From an uncultured Anaerolineaceae bacterium (lineage in GTDB: Bacteria; Chloroflexota; Anaerolineae; Anaerolineales; Anaerolineaceae), in assembly GCA_937907495.1 (NCBI GenBank), contig CALESS010000428.1:1-7867 (forward strand): a stretch of 7,867 nucleotides of DNA, read 5' to 3'. How positions within the stretch are numbered: position 1 is the stretch's first letter; each line of letters begins with the position of its first letter. Below the pieces are notes generated by a model that worked only from the letters and a program-made list of their open reading frames with translations, was not told the origin of the DNA and searched no databases. The translations under genes and the position numbers were made by a program. Below are positions 1 through 7,325 of this stretch, piece by piece.

Positions 1-869
1 TCCCGGTCGAGCAGGACGCCCAGCCGTTCTTCAAAACCCAGGTCATCCAGGGAGGCGGGTCGCAGCTCCAGGGCTAGGTCATGGATCGAAGAAATCATGC
101 CGGTGACGGTGCGAGACATCCCGCTGATGACCGTTTCCTTCTCTGAACAATTATCCGCATGTTCCAATATCCGCAGGCCAATCAGCAGGGAGGTGAGATT
201 TTGCCCCATTTCATCATGCAGCTCGCGAGAGATGCGCTGGCGCTCTTCCTCCTGGGCGTTTACCACGCTATTTAACAGCTTTTTAAGGCGGGTCTCTTTT
301 TTGTGAAGCTCCTCCCAGAGACGGGCGTTTTCAATGACTACTCCCAGGTGGGGTGCAACGGTTCGCAACAGGTCAATATCTGCTTGGCGAATGTGCTGCG
401 GGTCATTGAAGGCGATGTTAAGCTGGCCCACGAGGCGGGTATTGGCGACGAGGGGAACGGAAACATGACCCACAATCAACTCTTCCGGCTGGTCCTCGTT
501 TTTGATGAGCAAGAGAGGGCAGCCCTTGGTCAACTGGCTGACGATGACGATTTCCCGGGTCTTCCGCACCCGGTCGCAGACGCAACTCACCAGGCAAGGC
601 GAAGGCCCACCCTGGTTGGAAAAGCATAACCCCTTGTAGCCGACAAACGAATAGCACTTTTCTTCCTGCTCGTGCAGGCAAACCCAACCGACAGCCGAAT
701 CAATCATAGCCAGCACAAATTCAAGGGCTTTCTCGAGCGTCTCGGCGAGGGAACTGGTAGTGCCCAGGATGCGAAAGATCGAATTGAGGATTTCCACTTC
801 CCGGGGCGGGGTGTTCGCCAGGTTGGTGGAGGGAGAAATTACACTATCGGGGGATTGGGTAGCTTCCAT
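1..869 (-). CDS. GAF-domain sensor histidine kinase, NarL/NreB-like (C-terminal part beyond left edge)
   Basis: Reading the minus strand from ATG at 869 gives 289 codons open to the window edge, so the gene is partial. Residues about 30-180 look like a GAF domain that ends in a helical linker (DLLRTVAPHLGVVIENARL). Residues about 200-232 carry the HisKA_3 dimerisation and phosphoacceptor box EERQRISRELHDEMGQNL, with H218 the predicted phosphorylation site. This is followed by LRPASLDDLGF (269-279), the usual run-up to the HATPase domain, which must lie off the left end. There is no membrane segment, so the kinase is predicted to be soluble. The GAF domain holds seven cysteines (64, 72, 82, 92, 96, 98, 117), including a PCxxxCxC cluster, which could bind an Fe-S cluster or act as a thiol switch. 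The ATG has only a weak purine-rich ribosome site, so the start is provisional. The gene diverges from the hydrogenase operon. A response regulator partner is expected further left; that is inference. Confidence 0.9.
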   Translation of the reverse strand, partial: MEATQSPDSVISPSTNLANTPPREVEILNSIFRILGTTSSLAETLEKALEFVLAMIDSAVGWVCLHEQEEKCYSFVGYKGLCFSNQGGPSPCLVSCVCDRVRKTREIVIVSQLTKGCPLLLIKNEDQPEELIVGHVSVPLVANTRLVGQLNIAFNDPQHIRQADIDLLRTVAPHLGVVIENARLWEELHKKETRLKKLLNSVVNAQEEERQRISRELHDEMGQNLTSLLIGLRILEHADNCSEKETVISGMSRTVTGMISSIHDLALELRPASLDDLGFEERLGVLLDR

Positions 870-1195: not shown

Positions 1196-2362
1196 ATGAT
1201 CCCAAAACCAAAGAGTATTTCTGAGAATTTGGAGGAACAGGGCTTGAACCGGCGGGACTTCTTGAAGTTCTGTACGTTGATGGCTGCCACGCTGGCAATG
1301 CCCAAGGCGGTGAGCGCCCAGATTGCCCGGGCACTGGATACGGTCAGGCGCACCCCGGTAATCTGGCTGGAGTTCCAGGATTGCGCCGGCTGTACGGAGT
1401 CCTTCCTGCGGGCTTCGCGGCCATCCGCCGCGGAAGTGGTGTTGGAAACGCTTTCCATTGATTATCACGAGACGATCATGGCGGCTGCCGGCCGGGCGGC
1501 TGAAGAAGCAAAAGCCAAAACCATTGCCGAAGGTGGATACCTGCTGATTGTGGAAGGTTCCATCCCGATTGGTGAGACTGCGGCTTTTTGTTGCATCGGC
1601 GGACGCAGTGCGGGGGATATCCTGCAAGAGGCAACCCAGAACGCGGTGGCAGTAATTGCCGTTGGCTCCTGCGCTGCTTTTGGCGGCATCCCCAAGGCCG
1701 CCCCCAACCCCACGAATGCGGTAGGGGTAATGGACCTGGTGAAAGATAAGCCTGTATTGAATCTGCCCGGCTGCCCGCACAATGTGGTCAACCTGACGGC
1801 AACGGTCGTACACTTCCTGACCTTTGGAGCTTTGCCAGCCATGGATGATCTGCACCGCCCGTTGTTTGCCTACGGCGCTTTAATTCATGACAATTGTGAG
1901 CGCCGGGGTCATTTCGACAAGGGAGAATTCGTTCGCGCCTGGGGGGATGTATATCATCAGAATGGCTGGTGCCTGTACCAGATGGGCTGTAAAGGCCCGG
2001 TTACATCTCACAACTGCCCCTCTGTGAGGTGGAACGAAGGTGTGAACTGGCCGGTGGGCGGAGGGCACGGCTGCATTGGCTGCTCCGAGCCGGATTTCTG
2101 GGAGATGCCGACCTATGTGCCGGTGAAACTGCAAGATCAGACCCCGCCCACCGTGTATGCTCCGGCGGGAACCCAGAAAGAAGGTGTTACCCCGGAAGGG
2201 GCCGCCCTGACCGCAGGCACAATCGGCGTTGTGGCAGGGGCCGCTCTGGCCTTCGGTTATTCTGTGATGACCCAAAGAACCAAGGGGATTACCCCCGAGA
2301 TCGCCGAGGATGAACCTTCTCAAGAGCATGGGGAAGATGATCACTCTTCCTCGCATGAATAA
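1196..2362 (+). CDS. hybO: [NiFe] hydrogenase small subunit, Tat-exported and membrane-anchored
   Basis: This is the electron-transfer subunit of a group 1 (Hyb-like) hydrogenase, with 388 residues. ATG 1196 is chosen because AAGGA lies 8 nt upstream; the frame opens earlier, but only with a TTG at 1139. A twin-arginine signal (NRRDFLKFC, residues 18-26) ends near AVSA (41). Proximal cluster ligands are C63 and C66 (CAGC), C159 and C193. Distal ligands are H231, C234, C259 and C265. Medial ligands are C274, C293 and C296, with Pro286 in place of a fourth Cys, so a [3Fe-4S] cluster is expected. The two extra proximal-cluster cysteines of oxygen-tolerant enzymes are absent, so ordinary oxygen sensitivity is inferred. 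Residues about 337-357 form a C-terminal membrane anchor, followed by an acidic, His-containing tail. It is the first gene of the operon, 11 nt before the ferredoxin subunit. Confidence 0.95.
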   Translation: MIPKPKSISENLEEQGLNRRDFLKFCTLMAATLAMPKAVSAQIARALDTVRRTPVIWLEFQDCAGCTESFLRASRPSAAEVVLETLSIDYHETIMAAAGRAAEEAKAKTIAEGGYLLIVEGSIPIGETAAFCCIGGRSAGDILQEATQNAVAVIAVGSCAAFGGIPKAAPNPTNAVGVMDLVKDKPVLNLPGCPHNVVNLTATVVHFLTFGALPAMDDLHRPLFAYGALIHDNCERRGHFDKGEFVRAWGDVYHQNGWCLYQMGCKGPVTSHNCPSVRWNEGVNWPVGGGHGCIGCSEPDFWEMPTYVPVKLQDQTPPTVYAPAGTQKEGVTPEGAALTAGTIGVVAGAALAFGYSVMTQRTKGITPEIAEDEPSQEHGEDDHSSSHE

Positions 2363-2373
2363 GGGAGGTTATC

Positions 2374-3240
2374 ATGCCGATTAGTCGTAGAGATTTCTTT
2401 AAGATGGCCGGGGCAGGGCTGGGCGGCGTGGCGATGCTTGCCACTCCGCTGCCCGCCAGCAGCAAGAGCCTGGAAGCAGAAAACAGTGCATCCATGTTGT
2501 ACGATGCCACCAAGTGCGTTGGCTGCCGGGCTTGCCAGACGGCCTGCAAGGAGCGCTCCAACCTGCCCAAGGAAACGGATGCCTCCGGGTTGTATGAGGC
2601 TCCCCAGGATTTGAGCGCCTACACCTGGACGATGATAAAGATCTACAAGGCAGACGATGAGATGTCCTTTGTCAAAAACCAGTGCATGCACTGTATTGAG
2701 CCCGCCTGTGTGTCGGTATGTCCGGTGGCTGCGCTGGAAAAAACGGCGGACGGCCCGGTAATTTATCATGCCGATCGCTGCATTGGATGCCGGTACTGCA
2801 TGGCGGCCTGTCCATTTGGCATTCCCAAATCCCAATGGGATAAAGCGTTGCCACTGATCCAGAAATGTGATTTCTGCGCTGACCGATTGGCGAAAGGGGA
2901 AGAGCCTGCTTGCGGCGCCGCTTGCCCGACTGGGGCCTTGATTTCCGGGACCCGGGGTGAAATGCTGGATACAGCGCATACCCGGTTGGTCAGTAACCCG
3001 GGCTACGTGAATAAAGTGTATGGTGAGACGGAGGCGGGGGGGACCTCGATGTTATATATTGCCGGCGTGAGTGCGGAGAAATTGGGTTTTCCCGAACTGG
3101 ATGATACAGCATTACCCACCCTCGATTGGCCGTACATGAAAGCGGTGCCGTGGGTGGTGGGAGCCATGATCACCTTGAGCACCGGGGCTTACCTCTTCAC
3201 CCACCGTAAGACAACCGAAAAGCCCGAGAAGGAGGCTTAA
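2374..3240 (+). CDS. hybA: HybA-like periplasmic ferredoxin subunit with four [4Fe-4S] clusters
   Basis: This subunit carries electrons between the hydrogenase dimer and the NrfD-type membrane subunit. It has 288 residues. The start is supported by AAGGGAGG just upstream (2361-2368). A Tat signal (SRRDFFKMAG, 4-13) shows it is exported folded with its clusters. Sixteen cysteines fall in four ferredoxin groups: 48/51/54/58, 104/107/112/116, 136/139/142/146 and 165/168/180/184. That matches the four-cluster arrangement of the HybA/HmcB/DmsB-like family. Residues about 255-276 form a C-terminal transmembrane helix, as in E. coli HybA, so the protein is probably anchored beside HybB. It is somewhat shorter than E. 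coli HybA. Its stop lies one base before the next start, and the next gene's ribosome site (AAGGAGG, 3229-3235) is inside its coding sequence, so the two are translationally coupled. Confidence 0.92.
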   Translation: MPISRRDFFKMAGAGLGGVAMLATPLPASSKSLEAENSASMLYDATKCVGCRACQTACKERSNLPKETDASGLYEAPQDLSAYTWTMIKIYKADDEMSFVKNQCMHCIEPACVSVCPVAALEKTADGPVIYHADRCIGCRYCMAACPFGIPKSQWDKALPLIQKCDFCADRLAKGEEPACGAACPTGALISGTRGEMLDTAHTRLVSNPGYVNKVYGETEAGGTSMLYIAGVSAEKLGFPELDDTALPTLDWPYMKAVPWVVGAMITLSTGAYLFTHRKTTEKPEKEA

Positions 3241-3241
3241 G

Positions 3242-4417
3242 ATGGGAATTCGCATCGGAAAACTGGAAATGCGAAATTACCGGCTTGGCCCGGGTATGAT
3301 CCTGGTCTGGGTTTTGGGTGCGCTGGGGATGGGGGTGGCTGTCTGGCGATGGATTGTAGGACTCGGCCCGACCACCAATCTGAATGATGGGCGGGGCTGG
3401 GGATTGTGGATCAGTTTTGATATGATGAGTGGGATCGGCCTGGCCGCGGGAGCTTTTACAGTAGCGGCTGTGGTCTATTTATTCAATTTGAAGCAGTTCT
3501 ACCCCATCATCCGCCCCACCATCCTCACCGGGTTCATCAGCTACCTTCTGGCAGCTTTAACCCTGCTGGTAGACCTTGGCCAGCCGCAGCGCATCTGGCA
3601 TTTGCTGATCTATAGCAACATTCACTCACCGCTATTTGAAATTGGCTGGTGCGTGATGCTGTATTTAACGGTGCTGGCGCTGGAATTCAGCCCGATTCTG
3701 TTCGAGGCGCTCAATTGGAAAGTGCCGCTAAAGCTGATACGCAGCATCATGATTCCGTTGATTGTATTGGGTGTGACGCTTTCTACGCTCCATCAATCCA
3801 CCCTGGGGACGATGCTGACCATCCTGCCGCACCGGGTTCATCCGCTTTGGTATTCACCCCTCTTGCCGGTCTATTTCTTTTTGACGGCGGTGGCGGCTGG
3901 CCTGGCGATGACGGTTTTTGAGTCTTTTCATTCAGCCCGGACCTATGGTTATCCGTTTGAACTCAAACTGGTTTCCCGGTTGACCAAATCTGTACCCTAT
4001 GTGCTTGGCCTCTACCTGGTGGTGAGAATTGCGGAACTCTTAATCACCGGGGAGTACCGATTATTACTGGAAGGGGGAGCCGCCACCACCATGTTTATTG
4101 TTGAAATGGTCGGTGGGGTGATTGTTCCCATCCTGTTCTTTGCCGATCCTCGGACACGAAATGATCTACACGGCATCACCTGGGCAGCATTTTTCACCAT
4201 GGGCGGGTTGATTTTGAATCGCATGAATGCCGCCCTGATCTTTTTTGAGGGCGGGTATTACTTGCCTTCCCTGCCGGAAATAGCCGTTTCGGTAGGGTTA
4301 ACGTGCCTGGGCTTGATCATGTTTGACCTGGCAGTCCGTTTTCTGCCAATCCTCCCTGCACCCCGGAAACAAAAAGAAATTCAACCCAATACCCTGAAGG
4401 AGTCAGCCAATGCCTAA
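3242..4417 (+). CDS. hybB: HybB/NrfD-family integral membrane subunit (quinone-reactive)
   Basis: This is a polytopic membrane protein of 391 residues with about ten hydrophobic segments (roughly 18-40, 57-81, 93-112, 131-154, 167-187, 205-226, 250-268, 283-302, 310-333 and 345-370). It carries the usual NrfD/PsrC-family start ([11 protein letters not shown], then WGLWISFD). It has no haem-ligand pattern like the cytochrome b subunit of Hya-type enzymes. Family knowledge says HybB exchanges electrons with menaquinone and, in E. coli Hyd-2, may couple this to proton movement. The second segment (residues 60-72, [13 protein letters not shown]) resembles the conserved quinone-site helix of the family. 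The start is set by AAGGAGG 6 nt upstream. The 3' end overlaps the large-subunit gene by 8 nt, so their translation is coupled. Confidence 0.92.
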
Positions 4418-6122
4418 AATCGTCATTGATCCTATTACCCGAATTGAGGGGCACCTGCGCATTGAACTGGAAGTGGCCGATGGAAAAATCACCAAGGCCT
4501 GGTCTTCCACCACGATGTGGCGTGGAATTGAAGTGATTTTGAAAGGGAGGGATCCACGCGATGCCTGGACGTTTGCCCAGCGCATCTGCGGTGTTTGAAC
4601 GACGGTACATGCACTCAGCTCCGTGCGAGCTGTTGAAGATGCCCTGCAAATTAAAATCCCGTCGAATGCCCGTCTGATCCGGAACATCATTGAAGCCATC
4701 CAATATGTTCAAGATCATGTCGTTCACTTCTATCACCTGCATGCCCTGGATTGGGTTGATATCGTCAGCTCGTTGGATGCAGACCCGGAGGCGACCTCCA
4801 AACTGGCCCAGTCCATTTCGGATTGGCCGAAATCCAGCGCGGATTACTTCCGCGGTGTGCAAGAGCGGATTAAAACGTTTGTTTCCGGTGGTCAATTGGG
4901 GATCTTTGCCAATGCCTACTGGGGTCACCCGGCTTACAAACTTCCGCCGGAAGCCAACCTGATGGCGGTAGCCCACTACCTGGAAGCATTAGACTGGCAG
5001 CGGGAAGTGATCAAAGCCCATGCAATTCTGGGAACAAAAAATCCGCATTTACAGACCTACCTGGTGGGCGGGATGGCGAATGCCATCAACCCGAATAGCA
5101 CAGCAGCCCTGAACGCCGATAAGATCGCCTTCCTGCTGGACCTATTCAAGAAAGCCAAAGATTTTGTGGATAAGGTTTACCTGCCCGATGTGCTGGCAGT
5201 CGCTCCCTTCTACCTGGAATGGGCGGGAATGGGTGAGGGCCTGGGGAACTTCATGTCATTCGGAGATTTCCCCCAGACAGATGCGGTGGGTGAAGGCCTG
5301 GGTGATCTATTCATCCCGCGGGGTGTAATTTTGAACCGTGACTTGAGCAAGGTGTTACCGCTGGATGAAAACCTGATTGCAGAGTATGTGACCCACTCAT
5401 GGTATTCATACAGTGACGAGAGCGCTGGCCTGCACCCGCGGGTGGGAGAAACCACGCCCAATTACACCGGCCCAACGCCACCCTTCGAGTTTGTGGATAC
5501 CGAAAAGAAATATACCTGGCTCAAGGCGCCACGCTACGATAACAAAGCCATGGAAGTTGGTCCGCTGGCCCGGATGTTGATTGCTTATGCCTCCGGTCAC
5601 GAGCGGGTTCAGTACTGGGTGAATGCGGTACTGGGAAAACTGGGAGTAGGACCGGAAGTTCTGTTCTCCACCCTGGGGCGGATTGCTGCCCGCTGTGTGG
5701 AAACGGTGGTCATCGCCGAAAAGTTGGAAGAATGGACGATGGAACTGGCAGGCAACATAGGCCGGGGAGATTACCAGACCCACGAAAATGATCACTGGGA
5801 ACCCTCCACCTGGCCGGCGGAAGCCATAGGCTGGGGTTGGTCAGAGGCTCCGCGCGGTGCCCTGGGACACTGGATCCACATTAAGGATGGCAAGATTGCC
5901 AATTACCAGGCCATCGTGCCTTCCACCTGGAATGGTTCTCCACGGGATGCAAAGGGTCTGCCGGGTGCGTATGAAGCCTCACTGGTGGGCACGCCGCTGC
6001 TGGACCCGGATCAGCCGGTGGAAGTGCTGCGCACCATTCACTCCTTTGATCCCTGCATGGCCTGTGCGGTGCATCTGCTGGACCCGGACGGTAAAGAGCT
6101 TAAGGTTATCCAGGTCGTTTGA
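4410..6122 (+). CDS. hybC: [NiFe] hydrogenase large subunit, predicted selenoprotein (in-frame TGA at 4596)
   Basis: This is the catalytic subunit, which binds the Ni-Fe(CN)2CO centre and cleaves or forms H2. Reading through one TGA gives 570 residues, a normal family length; stopping there would leave 62. AAGGAG (4397-4402) supports ATG 4410. The N-terminal group 1 motif RIEGHLRIE is at 11-19. The first metal motif reads R58-I-C60-G-V-[TGA 63]-T-T-V-H67, with the TGA exactly in place of the second cysteine. The second metal motif DPCMACAVH has C549, C552 and H555, followed by a 15-residue tail that the maturation protease should remove after H555. C60 and C549 are expected to be terminal Ni ligands, and residue 63 and C552 bridging ones. 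No frameshift is needed, and conserved sequence continues directly after the TGA. The gene itself ends at a TGA, so TGA is also a stop here. Selenocysteine is the best reading; a nonsense mutation or base error is the alternative. A gene caller would split this into a 62-residue piece and a 499-residue piece from GTG 4623. Confidence 0.9.
4596..4598 (+). other. Predicted selenocysteine (UGA) codon 63 of the large subunit
   Basis: TGA replaces the Cys codon of the second residue of RxCGxC. It is in frame with both flanks (GGT GTT TGA ACG ACG). Trp codons in the operon are TGG, and the large-subunit gene ends at a TGA after its expected tail, so a general TGA-to-Trp code is not supported. Selenocysteine is the only standard recoding that would give a chemically sensible metal ligand. 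No selA, selB, selC or selD gene lies in the window to confirm the machinery. Confidence 0.8.
4611..4642 (+). promoter_or_regulatory. Candidate bacterial SECIS element within the large-subunit gene
   Basis: Starting 18 nt after the TGA, CAGCTC (4616-4621) pairs perfectly with GAGCTG (4627-4632) around the 5-nt loop CGTGC. A U-U mismatch and internal loop follow, and GCA (4611-4613) can pair with TGC (4640-4642) as a short lower stem. Bacterial SECIS elements sit directly after the UGA with an apical loop roughly 16-37 nt downstream and a G in the first two loop positions. Here the loop begins 24 nt after the UGA, has G as its second base, and shows GU as in E. coli fdhF. A U next to the stem base (4615) may play the part of the bulged U. 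A weaker competing pairing, GCAC (4611-4614) with GTGC (4623-4626), exists. Confidence 0.65.
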
Positions 6123-6589
6123 TGGCCAAAGATTTGATCCTGGGCGTGGGCAACCTGCTGTTGACCGATGAAGGGGTGGGGATTCACGTCGTGCAGAAAT
6201 TGCTGGAGTATGCAGACCTGCCCCCGGATGTTGAGATCGTGGATGGCGGGACGGCTGGCCTGGGATTGCTCTACTACCTGGAAGGTGTGAACCGCCTGGT
6301 GATCGTAGACGCGGTGGAACTGCATGCCGCTCCGGGGACGATTGTCCGATGGAGCGGGGAGCAGGTACCGGTATATATGGCGATGAAGGTCTCACCGCAT
6401 GAAATAACCCTGCCGGATTTTCTGGCGGCCGCCAGGCTGCGGGATTTATATCCACAGGAGGTGATCGTGTGGGGCATCCAACCGGAATCGCTGGAGGTGG
6501 GGGTGGATTTAAGCCCGACGCTGGCGGCGAAGCTGGATGAACTGGTGCAGAATGTGCTGGGAGAGTTCAGCCCGTCGAAGGAAAAGTAA
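6122..6589 (+). CDS. hybD: Hydrogenase maturation endopeptidase, HybD/HyaD family
   Basis: This 155-residue protease removes the C-terminal tail of the large subunit once nickel is inserted, which lets the active site close. ATG 6122 overlaps the large-subunit stop by one base (TGATG), so translation is coupled; a TTG one codon earlier is less likely. The N-terminal LILGVGNLLLTDEGVGIHVV is the family signature. The three metal-sensing residues known in E. coli HybD (E16, D62, H93) have clear counterparts at E17, D63 and H93. The length matches the family. It lies directly after the large subunit, and its expected cut site is after H555 of that protein. It would therefore have to recognise a large subunit with Sec rather than Cys at one metal position. 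No hypA-F accessory genes are in the window. Confidence 0.95.
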   Translation: MAKDLILGVGNLLLTDEGVGIHVVQKLLEYADLPPDVEIVDGGTAGLGLLYYLEGVNRLVIVDAVELHAAPGTIVRWSGEQVPVYMAMKVSPHEITLPDFLAAARLRDLYPQEVIVWGIQPESLEVGVDLSPTLAAKLDELVQNVLGEFSPSKEK

Positions 6590-6678: not shown

Positions 6679-6685
6679 AATCAAG

Positions 6686-6727
6686 TCGGGGCGAAAGGAT
6701 TTGAACCTTCGACCTCTTGCACCCCAA
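6686..6727 (-). other. 3' half of tRNA-Pro(GGG), probable integration attachment site (att core)
   Basis: Read on the minus strand, this stretch is tRNA positions 32-73. It has anticodon loop TTGGGGT (anticodon GGG with G37), the 3' strand of the anticodon stem GCAAG, variable loop AGGTC, T arm GAAGG-TTCAAAT-CCTTT, acceptor strand CGCCCCG and discriminator A. CCA is not encoded. The match stops exactly at the 5' edge of the anticodon loop. The next bases (TTTGG on the minus strand) cannot pair with GCAAG, and no D arm or 5' acceptor strand follows. A tRNA 3' half cut at the anticodon loop is the classic duplicate left by tyrosine-recombinase integration. Its orientation puts the chromosome on the left and the inserted element on the right. 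Confidence 0.75.
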
Positions 6728-7325
6728 CCAAACGGCGGGGGTTCGGACGGCTGAGAATGCCCTGTTGGAGGGGTTGCTGCTGGGGAAAAGCCCCTGGGAA
6801 GTGGGGCGAATGCTGAAGAAAGCCCTGGGGATAGGTTTGAGCCGGGCGTTGACCATTGCCAGGACGGAAACGCTGCGGGCGCACCGGGAGGCAACCCGGG
6901 CCAGTTACCAGGCGAACAAAGGCCTGGTGGGTGGCTGGATCTGGCACAGTGCGGCGGATGAGCGAACGTGTGGCTGCTGCTGGGCGATGCACGGAACGGA
7001 GCACAGCCTGGAGGAGGAATTGGACGGGCACCCGAATTGCCGTTGTGCGATGGTGCCGATATTGCCGGGAATCAACTTCGAGGTGAAACCGGGAGTGGAA
7101 TTGTTTGCCGGGCTGACGGCTGAAAAACAGATTCGGATTCTGGGGCCGGCAAAGTGGGCAGCCTGGAAGGACGGCCGGTTTGCACTGGGCGACCTGGTGG
7201 GGGTGAAGGAAAGTAGCGTTTGGGGGAGTATGCGGGTGGAGCGGAGTTTGGGGGATTTAATTGGTACGGAAACTGCCAGAGAGTATTACCCGATTAGGAA
7301 AAGGAGCACCAGTGGGTTCACCTGA
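6717..7325 (+). pseudogene. Phage Mu F-like / SPP1 gp7-type head morphogenesis protein, N-terminally truncated
   Basis: The frame encodes the C-terminal part of a minor head (portal-associated) protein. It has the family's helical run ALTIARTETLRAHREATRASY (44-64), then GWIWHSAADERTCGCC (73-88) with a following MHGTEH, and HPNCRCAMVPIL (105-116). This is the typical DERTCxxCxxxHG...HPNCRC arrangement, probably metal-binding. Full-length members are much longer, with an N-terminal region missing here. Phage-like sequence begins near codon 10, just past the tRNA fragment. Upstream the frame enters the tRNA sequence and meets a stop at 6702-6704. The only available start is TTG 6717, inside the tRNA core, with no ribosome site, so the fragment is probably not functional. 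It ends at TGA 7323-7325, and the same frame is open again afterwards. Confidence 0.75.

Follow-up and report, generated by a model that had tools for sequence, protein, structure and literature searches.

Does an in-frame UGA that falls on a nickel-ligand codon of a hydrogenase gene end the protein, or is it read as selenocysteine (Sec), and where in the active site would the selenium then stand? This question is raised by a 7,867-nt stretch of DNA (the window) from an uncultured Anaerolineaceae bacterium, in which a hydrogenase operon carries such a codon. The evidence makes it very likely that UGA 4596-4598 encodes a predicted selenocysteine that replaces the Ni-Fe bridging cysteine of a membrane-bound Hyb-type [NiFe] hydrogenase. 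The window contains the following features:

1196-2362, forward strand: hydrogenase small subunit, HybO-like, with a Tat signal
2374-3240, forward strand: HybA-like 4Fe-4S electron-transfer subunit (ferredoxin)
3242-4417, forward strand: HybB/NrfD-like integral membrane subunit, whose 3´ end extends into the 5´ end of the large subunit gene
4410-6122, forward strand: HybC-like large subunit gene of 570 codons, with the UGA read through at codon 63 (PF00374, E 8e-235)
4587-4589, forward strand: TGC codon of Cys60, the first N-terminal ligand, which is TGA in double-Sec relatives
4596-4598, forward strand: in-frame UGA, predicted selenocysteine 63, at the second ligand of the N-terminal RxCGxC
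4616-4632, forward strand: SECIS-like stem-loop with arms 4616-4621 and 4627-4632 and loop CGUGC at 4622-4626
4623-4625, forward strand: GTG in the SECIS loop, used by gene callers as the start of a truncated protein of about 499 amino acids (ORF 4623-6122)
6054-6065, forward strand: C-terminal CxxC ligands, DPCMAC, with Cys codons TGC and TGT
6122-6589, forward strand: HybD-like maturation protease, starting inside the TGA that ends the large subunit gene

The nickel ligands of [NiFe] hydrogenases lie in the motifs RxCGxC and DPCxxC, and the second cysteine of each bridges Ni and Fe. The translated large subunit reads MPKIVIDP...RICGV-U63-TTVHAL...HSFDPCMACAVH...VIQVV. It scores 781 bits against Pfam NiFeSe_Hases, with the domain over the full length, and contains the RxCGx(C/U), DPCxxCxxH and RIEGH motifs by which a Hyb-type [NiFe] hydrogenase is recognized; the order of the operon is hybOABCD-like. 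The gene has one internal TGA (4596-4598), and its terminator is a second TGA (6120-6122). When the protein is aligned with E. coli Hyd-1 (3uqy_L), its residues 60 and 63 fall on residues 76 and 79 of that chain, and residue 79 is the second Cys of RICGVC there; alignment with hydrogenases of solved structure is thus enough to place the predicted ligand. The closest solved chain to the window large subunit is 3myr_B.

An earlier note, made from the letters of the window, had claimed an in-frame UGA at the second Cys of the N-terminal motif, within a single unbroken frame that retains an intact C-terminal motif. The reading of the frame and the alignment to residue 79 of 3uqy_L bear out the first point, and the 570 codons with both cysteines of DPCMAC bear out the second. 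Its reading of the residue as a bridging Sec is supported by the alignment to known structures and was, if anything, too modest, as a double form with Sec at both N-terminal ligands exists. Canonical [NiFeSe] hydrogenases are recognized by DPUxxC; the window has DPCMAC, and both C-terminal ligands are Cys in 130/130 U-form sequences in which this motif was read (of 147).

Three further observations concern the flanks of the operon. A divergent histidine kinase with GAF and HisKA_3 domains (window 3-869, reverse strand) lies beside it and is a possible regulator. Downstream, positions 6717-7322 (forward strand) encode a Phage Mu F-like protein (PF04233) with a TTG start. By eye, positions 6684-6730 look like the end of a tRNA, and ARAGORN reported no tRNA.

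A genome collection was scanned with the pattern R-(I/F/L)-C-G-x-TGA-T-x-V-H, which returned 90 stretches. All 90, together with the window, are hydrogenase frames that run through the TGA, which indicates that the TGA in this motif is not a chance occurrence. Of the 91 frames, 71 reach a stop codon before their locus ends, always 502-527 codons past the TGA, and the remaining 20 are open to the locus end, over 18-497 codons. A large-subunit match is present in 89 of the 90 scan loci. The full hybOABCD-like order is found in 30 of these 89 and a partial order in most of the other scan loci, many of which are cut by the locus end; HybB follows HybD in seven. The stretches come from Chloroflexota (mainly Anaerolineae), Nitrospirota, Desulfobacterota/'Deltaproteobacteria', Spirochaetota and Rokuibacteriota, and two further bins carry the labels Firmicutes and Proteobacteria. 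In the plasmid collection, 139 records match the window protein, every one at less than 60% identity. A selenoprotein is typically marked by an in-frame UGA where its homologues have Cys, and this feature is present here. The earlier note had proposed a search for RxCGxU with TGA read as U; over all loci, those of the scan included, TGA stands at the second ligand codon alone in 92 distinct sequences, and Cys, present in other relatives, is the only alternative residue observed at that position.

Surveys of whole genomes with the window protein also uncovered relatives that read R-I-U-G-V-U, in which both N-terminal ligand codons are TGA (L092, L093, L095, L121-L124 and others). The forms are named here by the two N-terminal ligands, U standing for TGA. 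The 193 distinct stretches around the motif comprise 92 CxxU (a number inflated by the targeted scan), 55 UxxU, 46 CxxC and no UxxC; the pattern behind this count missed four loci, L118, L137, L197 and L200, of which two are CxxC and two UxxU. A direct UxxC pattern matched 0/295 genomes of the Nitrospirota and 0/249 of the Anaerolineae-type class (0/544). In that class, to which G001 belongs, 52/249 genomes match the window protein at 1e-100, with TGA in 23 of the 52. In the Nitrospirota (the phylum of G005), 106/295 genomes match at 1e-150; 68 have TGA, with two TGAs in 47 of the 68, and the 30 loci read there divide into 28 UxxU and 2 CxxC. In the Desulfobacterota (the phylum of G004), 143/345 genomes match at 1e-150 and TGA is present in at least 10; 27 of the 30 loci read are CxxC, L162 is UxxU, and L166 and L168 are CxxU. 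Six more loci of this phylum (L181-L186), again CxxU, make up a separate clade in which the motif is RxCGVU-T-x-x-H and the TGA falls on the same ligand.

On a FastTree tree of 175 of 220 rows, from which same-form near-copies above 93% were dropped and in which the ligand columns were masked, the three forms interleave, with at least 26 changes of form over the 175 rows (21 database proteins included) and at least 18 when the tree is restricted to the 154 rows read from DNA. The nearest row to the window is P0002, a Cys form known from protein letters only. Since CxxU and UxxU are both common and UxxC was not found in these genomes, the change at the bridging position seems to precede that at the terminal ligand. 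In five genomes (G012, G035, G579, G475 and G400) the large subunit is encoded twice, by genes that differ in form: UxxU occurs beside CxxU, for instance, or a Cys form beside either of these. Such pairs suggest isozymes that may be switched by the selenium supply. An internal TAA or TAG occurs in the large-subunit matches of G459 and G556 and in L105 (G236) and L117 (G108).

Bacterial SECIS elements are stem-loops that closely follow the UGA on its 3´ side and have a G as the first or second base of the loop, at a distance of 16-37 nt. In the window, the stem CAGCUC-CGUGC-GAGCUG begins 20 nt after the first base of the UGA, has such a G in its loop and places it 24 nt from the UGA. In the UxxU form, the loop G would be 33 nt downstream of the first UGA and 24 nt downstream of the second, distances that also fall in the 16-37 nt range. 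An uninterrupted stem of at least 6 bp is present in 78/81 CxxU, 37/56 UxxU and 5/50 CxxC sequences, compared with 7-12% of synonymous shuffles. When a bulge is allowed, the stem appears in 51/56 UxxU but also in 23/50 Cys forms and separates the forms poorly.

The comparative sets were chosen by a protein identity of at least 60% to the window and not by the stem, and contain 68 U-form and 33 Cys-form sequences. An earlier set matched on the stem codons, with its count of 49 sequences forming at least 5/6 pairs, was circular and was dropped. In the U set, 91.7% of the cells pair (a level reached by 0/500 shuffles), both sides change in 3/6 pairs (4/500) with 28 such cells (0/500), and the covariation score is 0.170 (0/500); these shuffles leave kinship in place. 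In its number of further pair types, the U set does not exceed the shuffles (497/500 as high). Slid partners in this set pair in only 29-60%. The Cys set pairs in 56.1%, as in shuffles (112/500). All six pairs are formed in 49/68 U sequences and in 1/33 Cys sequences, L167 (genome G729). L167 has TGT at both ligands, an intact stem, selA and selB in its genome and UxxU/CxxU neighbours on the tree, and is therefore likely a recent change of form from Sec to Cys.

The paired codons covary, AGC with GCT, TGC with GCA and GCC with GGC. The GCC/GGC pairing exchanges Ala for Gly in the right arm of eight UxxU sequences, where the residue yields to the RNA. Other clades have different stems at compatible distances, such as ACGCACUG-GCUU-CAGUGCGU, which suggests that the SECIS-like element was probably re-formed on more than one occasion. 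Free-energy folding gave ambiguous results and was set aside as proof of the SECIS in favour of the comparative counts: the 56-nt RNA of the window alone favours another pairing over the proposed stem (z -1.92, with 9/200 shuffles as stable), and RNAalifold calls the three inner pairs only. Rfam returned no SECIS match on the window.

The machinery for Sec insertion was sought in the 50 genomes behind L001-L050 (of the 90 loci). selA exceeds the cut-off in 48 and selB in 45; tRNA-Sec does so in 38, of which 35 reach at least 60 bits. The CxxU bin G049 is the sole one of the 50 in which none of the three is over the cut-off. In the Nitrospirota, 36 of the 68 TGA genomes (all with two TGAs) were compared with 36 of the 38 without TGA, the two with internal TAA or TAG being left out. 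selB is found in 36/36 genomes with TGA and in 20/36 without it (Fisher p 3.6e-6, which ignores kinship), and selA in 36/36 and 22/36, respectively. In the Anaerolineae-type class, selA is present in 22/23 TGA genomes and in 23/29 others (p 0.12; 3 of the 29 matches miss the motif), a contrast that is weak because selA is so common there (over the cut-off in 208/249 genomes). G054, the TGA genome of this comparison without selA, has selB.

These results bear on the residue that is inserted. Opal-suppressor tRNA-Cys species exist, and Cys occupies this position in the relatives that lack the UGA, so that the codon might be decoded as cysteine by such a tRNA, or as another residue under a changed code, and the enzyme would be an ordinary [NiFe] hydrogenase. 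The main text of PMC5424206, on Chloroflexi tRNA-Cys systems, does not contain the words UGA and opal. TGA also terminates 48/128 U-form genes with the end read, the window's included, which indicates that the code is not reassigned. The stem that covaries 3´ of the codon in U but not in Cys forms fits SelB-type decoding and would be needless for a suppressor tRNA, and selA and selB track the U form in the Nitrospirota. We regard decoding as cysteine or another residue as improbable and infer that the inserted amino acid is Sec.

The N-terminal motif is absent from 45 of the best 120 database homologues, and 42 of these 45 start at RAVE(D/N), just past the codon; the letter U occurs in none of the best 120, where the database may write U as C. 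Taken at face value, the 45 truncated entries would agree with a true stop at the UGA and a functional protein that begins at GTG 4623, as gene callers have it. Such a protein would be left without both N-terminal Ni ligands and RIEGH, and its GTG sits in the loop of the covarying stem. In addition, the 62 codons before the UGA keep the frame and are under purifying selection where dS can be estimated. Between the window and L057, dN/dS is 0.152/1.259 before the UGA and 0.138/1.507 after it, and in every pair with an estimable dS both flanks of the codon have a dN far lower than dS, dS before the codon being saturated in 2/9 pairs. A true stop is thus very improbable, and the truncated entries indicate that gene callers cut this class short.

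That the TGA is a point mutation of TGC or TGT in a pseudogene, or a sequencing error, and the enzyme dead, is barely credible here and is already contradicted for the family: TGA is one base from either codon and relatives with the letter C stand at 82-83% identity, but the codon is TGA in 92 CxxU and 55 UxxU distinct sequences, selection is purifying on both sides, and 142-144 of 144 U-form reads preserve the remaining catalytic motifs (RIEGH and the C-terminal motif in 144/144, APRG in 142/144, the reads not being deduplicated). The earlier note had counted against Sec the case in which all close relatives have Cys and this copy is otherwise inactivated; this was not seen, and relatives with TGA and intact motifs were found. 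The retained motifs, together with a dN far below dS, suggest that the enzyme is most likely active. Judged from its sequence, it is most likely a respiratory H2-uptake hydrogenase with Sec63 as a bridging ligand. Partner residues that differ between the Cys and U forms were also compared; as the comparison ignores kinship, no firm one is claimed.

Sec at the second N-terminal Cys, the new position put forward in the earlier note, is therefore supported by the recurrence of TGA, the covarying stem, the presence of sel genes in the U-form genomes looked at, with one bin as the exception, and the intact motifs. We propose that UGA 4596-4598 would be translated as Sec via SelA, SelB and tRNA-Sec, with the stem-loop at 4616-4632 likely directing the insertion. 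The selenolate would stand in for the second N-terminal cysteine, and the selenium of residue 63 would bridge Ni and Fe. The enzyme would oxidise H2 and pass the electrons via HybO, HybA and HybB to quinone. The family has often taken a second step, in which the codon of the other N-terminal cysteine, whose thiolate is a terminal ligand of Ni, is UGA as well, and two of the four Ni ligands would then be selenium; in this UxxU form, one SECIS probably serves both codons. A possible gain is faster reactivation together with resistance to irreversible oxidation of the ligand, and an alternative gain would be easier capture of Fe(CN)2CO during assembly. A lower pKa and faster reduction after oxidation are other effects that selenium may have.

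Beyond the window, it is probable, with somewhat less assurance than for the single codon, that these sequences represent a natural class of [NiFe] hydrogenases. This class would carry selenium at the bridging ligand (CxxU) and then also at the terminal one (UxxU), in a fixed order and in several phyla. Its double form would hold nickel with two selenolates and two thiolates, one stem-loop would decode two UGAs with their first bases nine apart, and databases would hide the class as truncated proteins. H2-oxidising selenoenzymes are then likely to be common among the Nitrospirota and the Anaerolineae, two groups whose annotation contains many truncated proteins that look dead.

In the known [NiFeSe] hydrogenases, Sec occupies the position of the first Cys of the C-terminal motif. 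The enzymes of sulfate reducers (HysA; PDB codes: 5jsu and 1cc1) and the methanogen FrhA and VhuA/VhuU resemble the window in that a UGA-encoded Sec replaces a Ni ligand. They differ in that their Sec stands at the first C-terminal Cys, where the window has TGC; the predicted Sec of the window belongs to the N-terminal motif, as its bridging ligand, and in relatives the terminal ligand of that motif is affected too. In Table 1 of PMC13188914, FrhA and MvhA/VhuA/VhuU are entered as UxxC. The available text of this 2026 inventory of 119 prokaryotic selenoprotein families and subfamilies gives hydrogenase large subunits as UxxC only, and describes Sec hydrogenases as exclusive to sulfate-reducing and methanogenic microorganisms; contrary to that description, the sequences reported here would place Sec-containing hydrogenases beyond these two groups. 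The parts of the open-access literature that were searched yielded no N-terminal Sec hydrogenase. As far as the inventory and this literature go, natural selenohydrogenases have so far had selenium at one position, the proton-carrying terminal ligand.

The double form shares its two Sec spaced by two residues with other UxxU selenoproteins, such as the Prx-like and FmdB-type proteins; Table 1 of PMC13188914 lists Prx-like, metal-binding and FmdB-type proteins with UxxU and no hydrogenase. E. coli Hyd-2 (HybOABC) and other Hyb-type respiratory hydrogenases share with the window the gene order (small subunit, HybA, HybB, large subunit, protease) and the catalytic motifs. Compared with these, the window has a UGA at the codon of the second N-terminal ligand and a SECIS-like stem within the coding sequence. 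The natural series CC, CU and UU offers a way to the part that each ligand plays in H2 turnover, oxygen damage, reactivation and cofactor assembly. According to the text of PMC11212049, which cites Evans et al. (PNAS 2021), E. coli Hyd-1 has been engineered with Sec at each of the four Ni-coordinating cysteines, which indicates that such a site can be made. These Cys-to-Sec variants of Hyd-1 cover the position found in the window; Sec is engineered there, whereas here it is predicted to be natural, widespread and often double.
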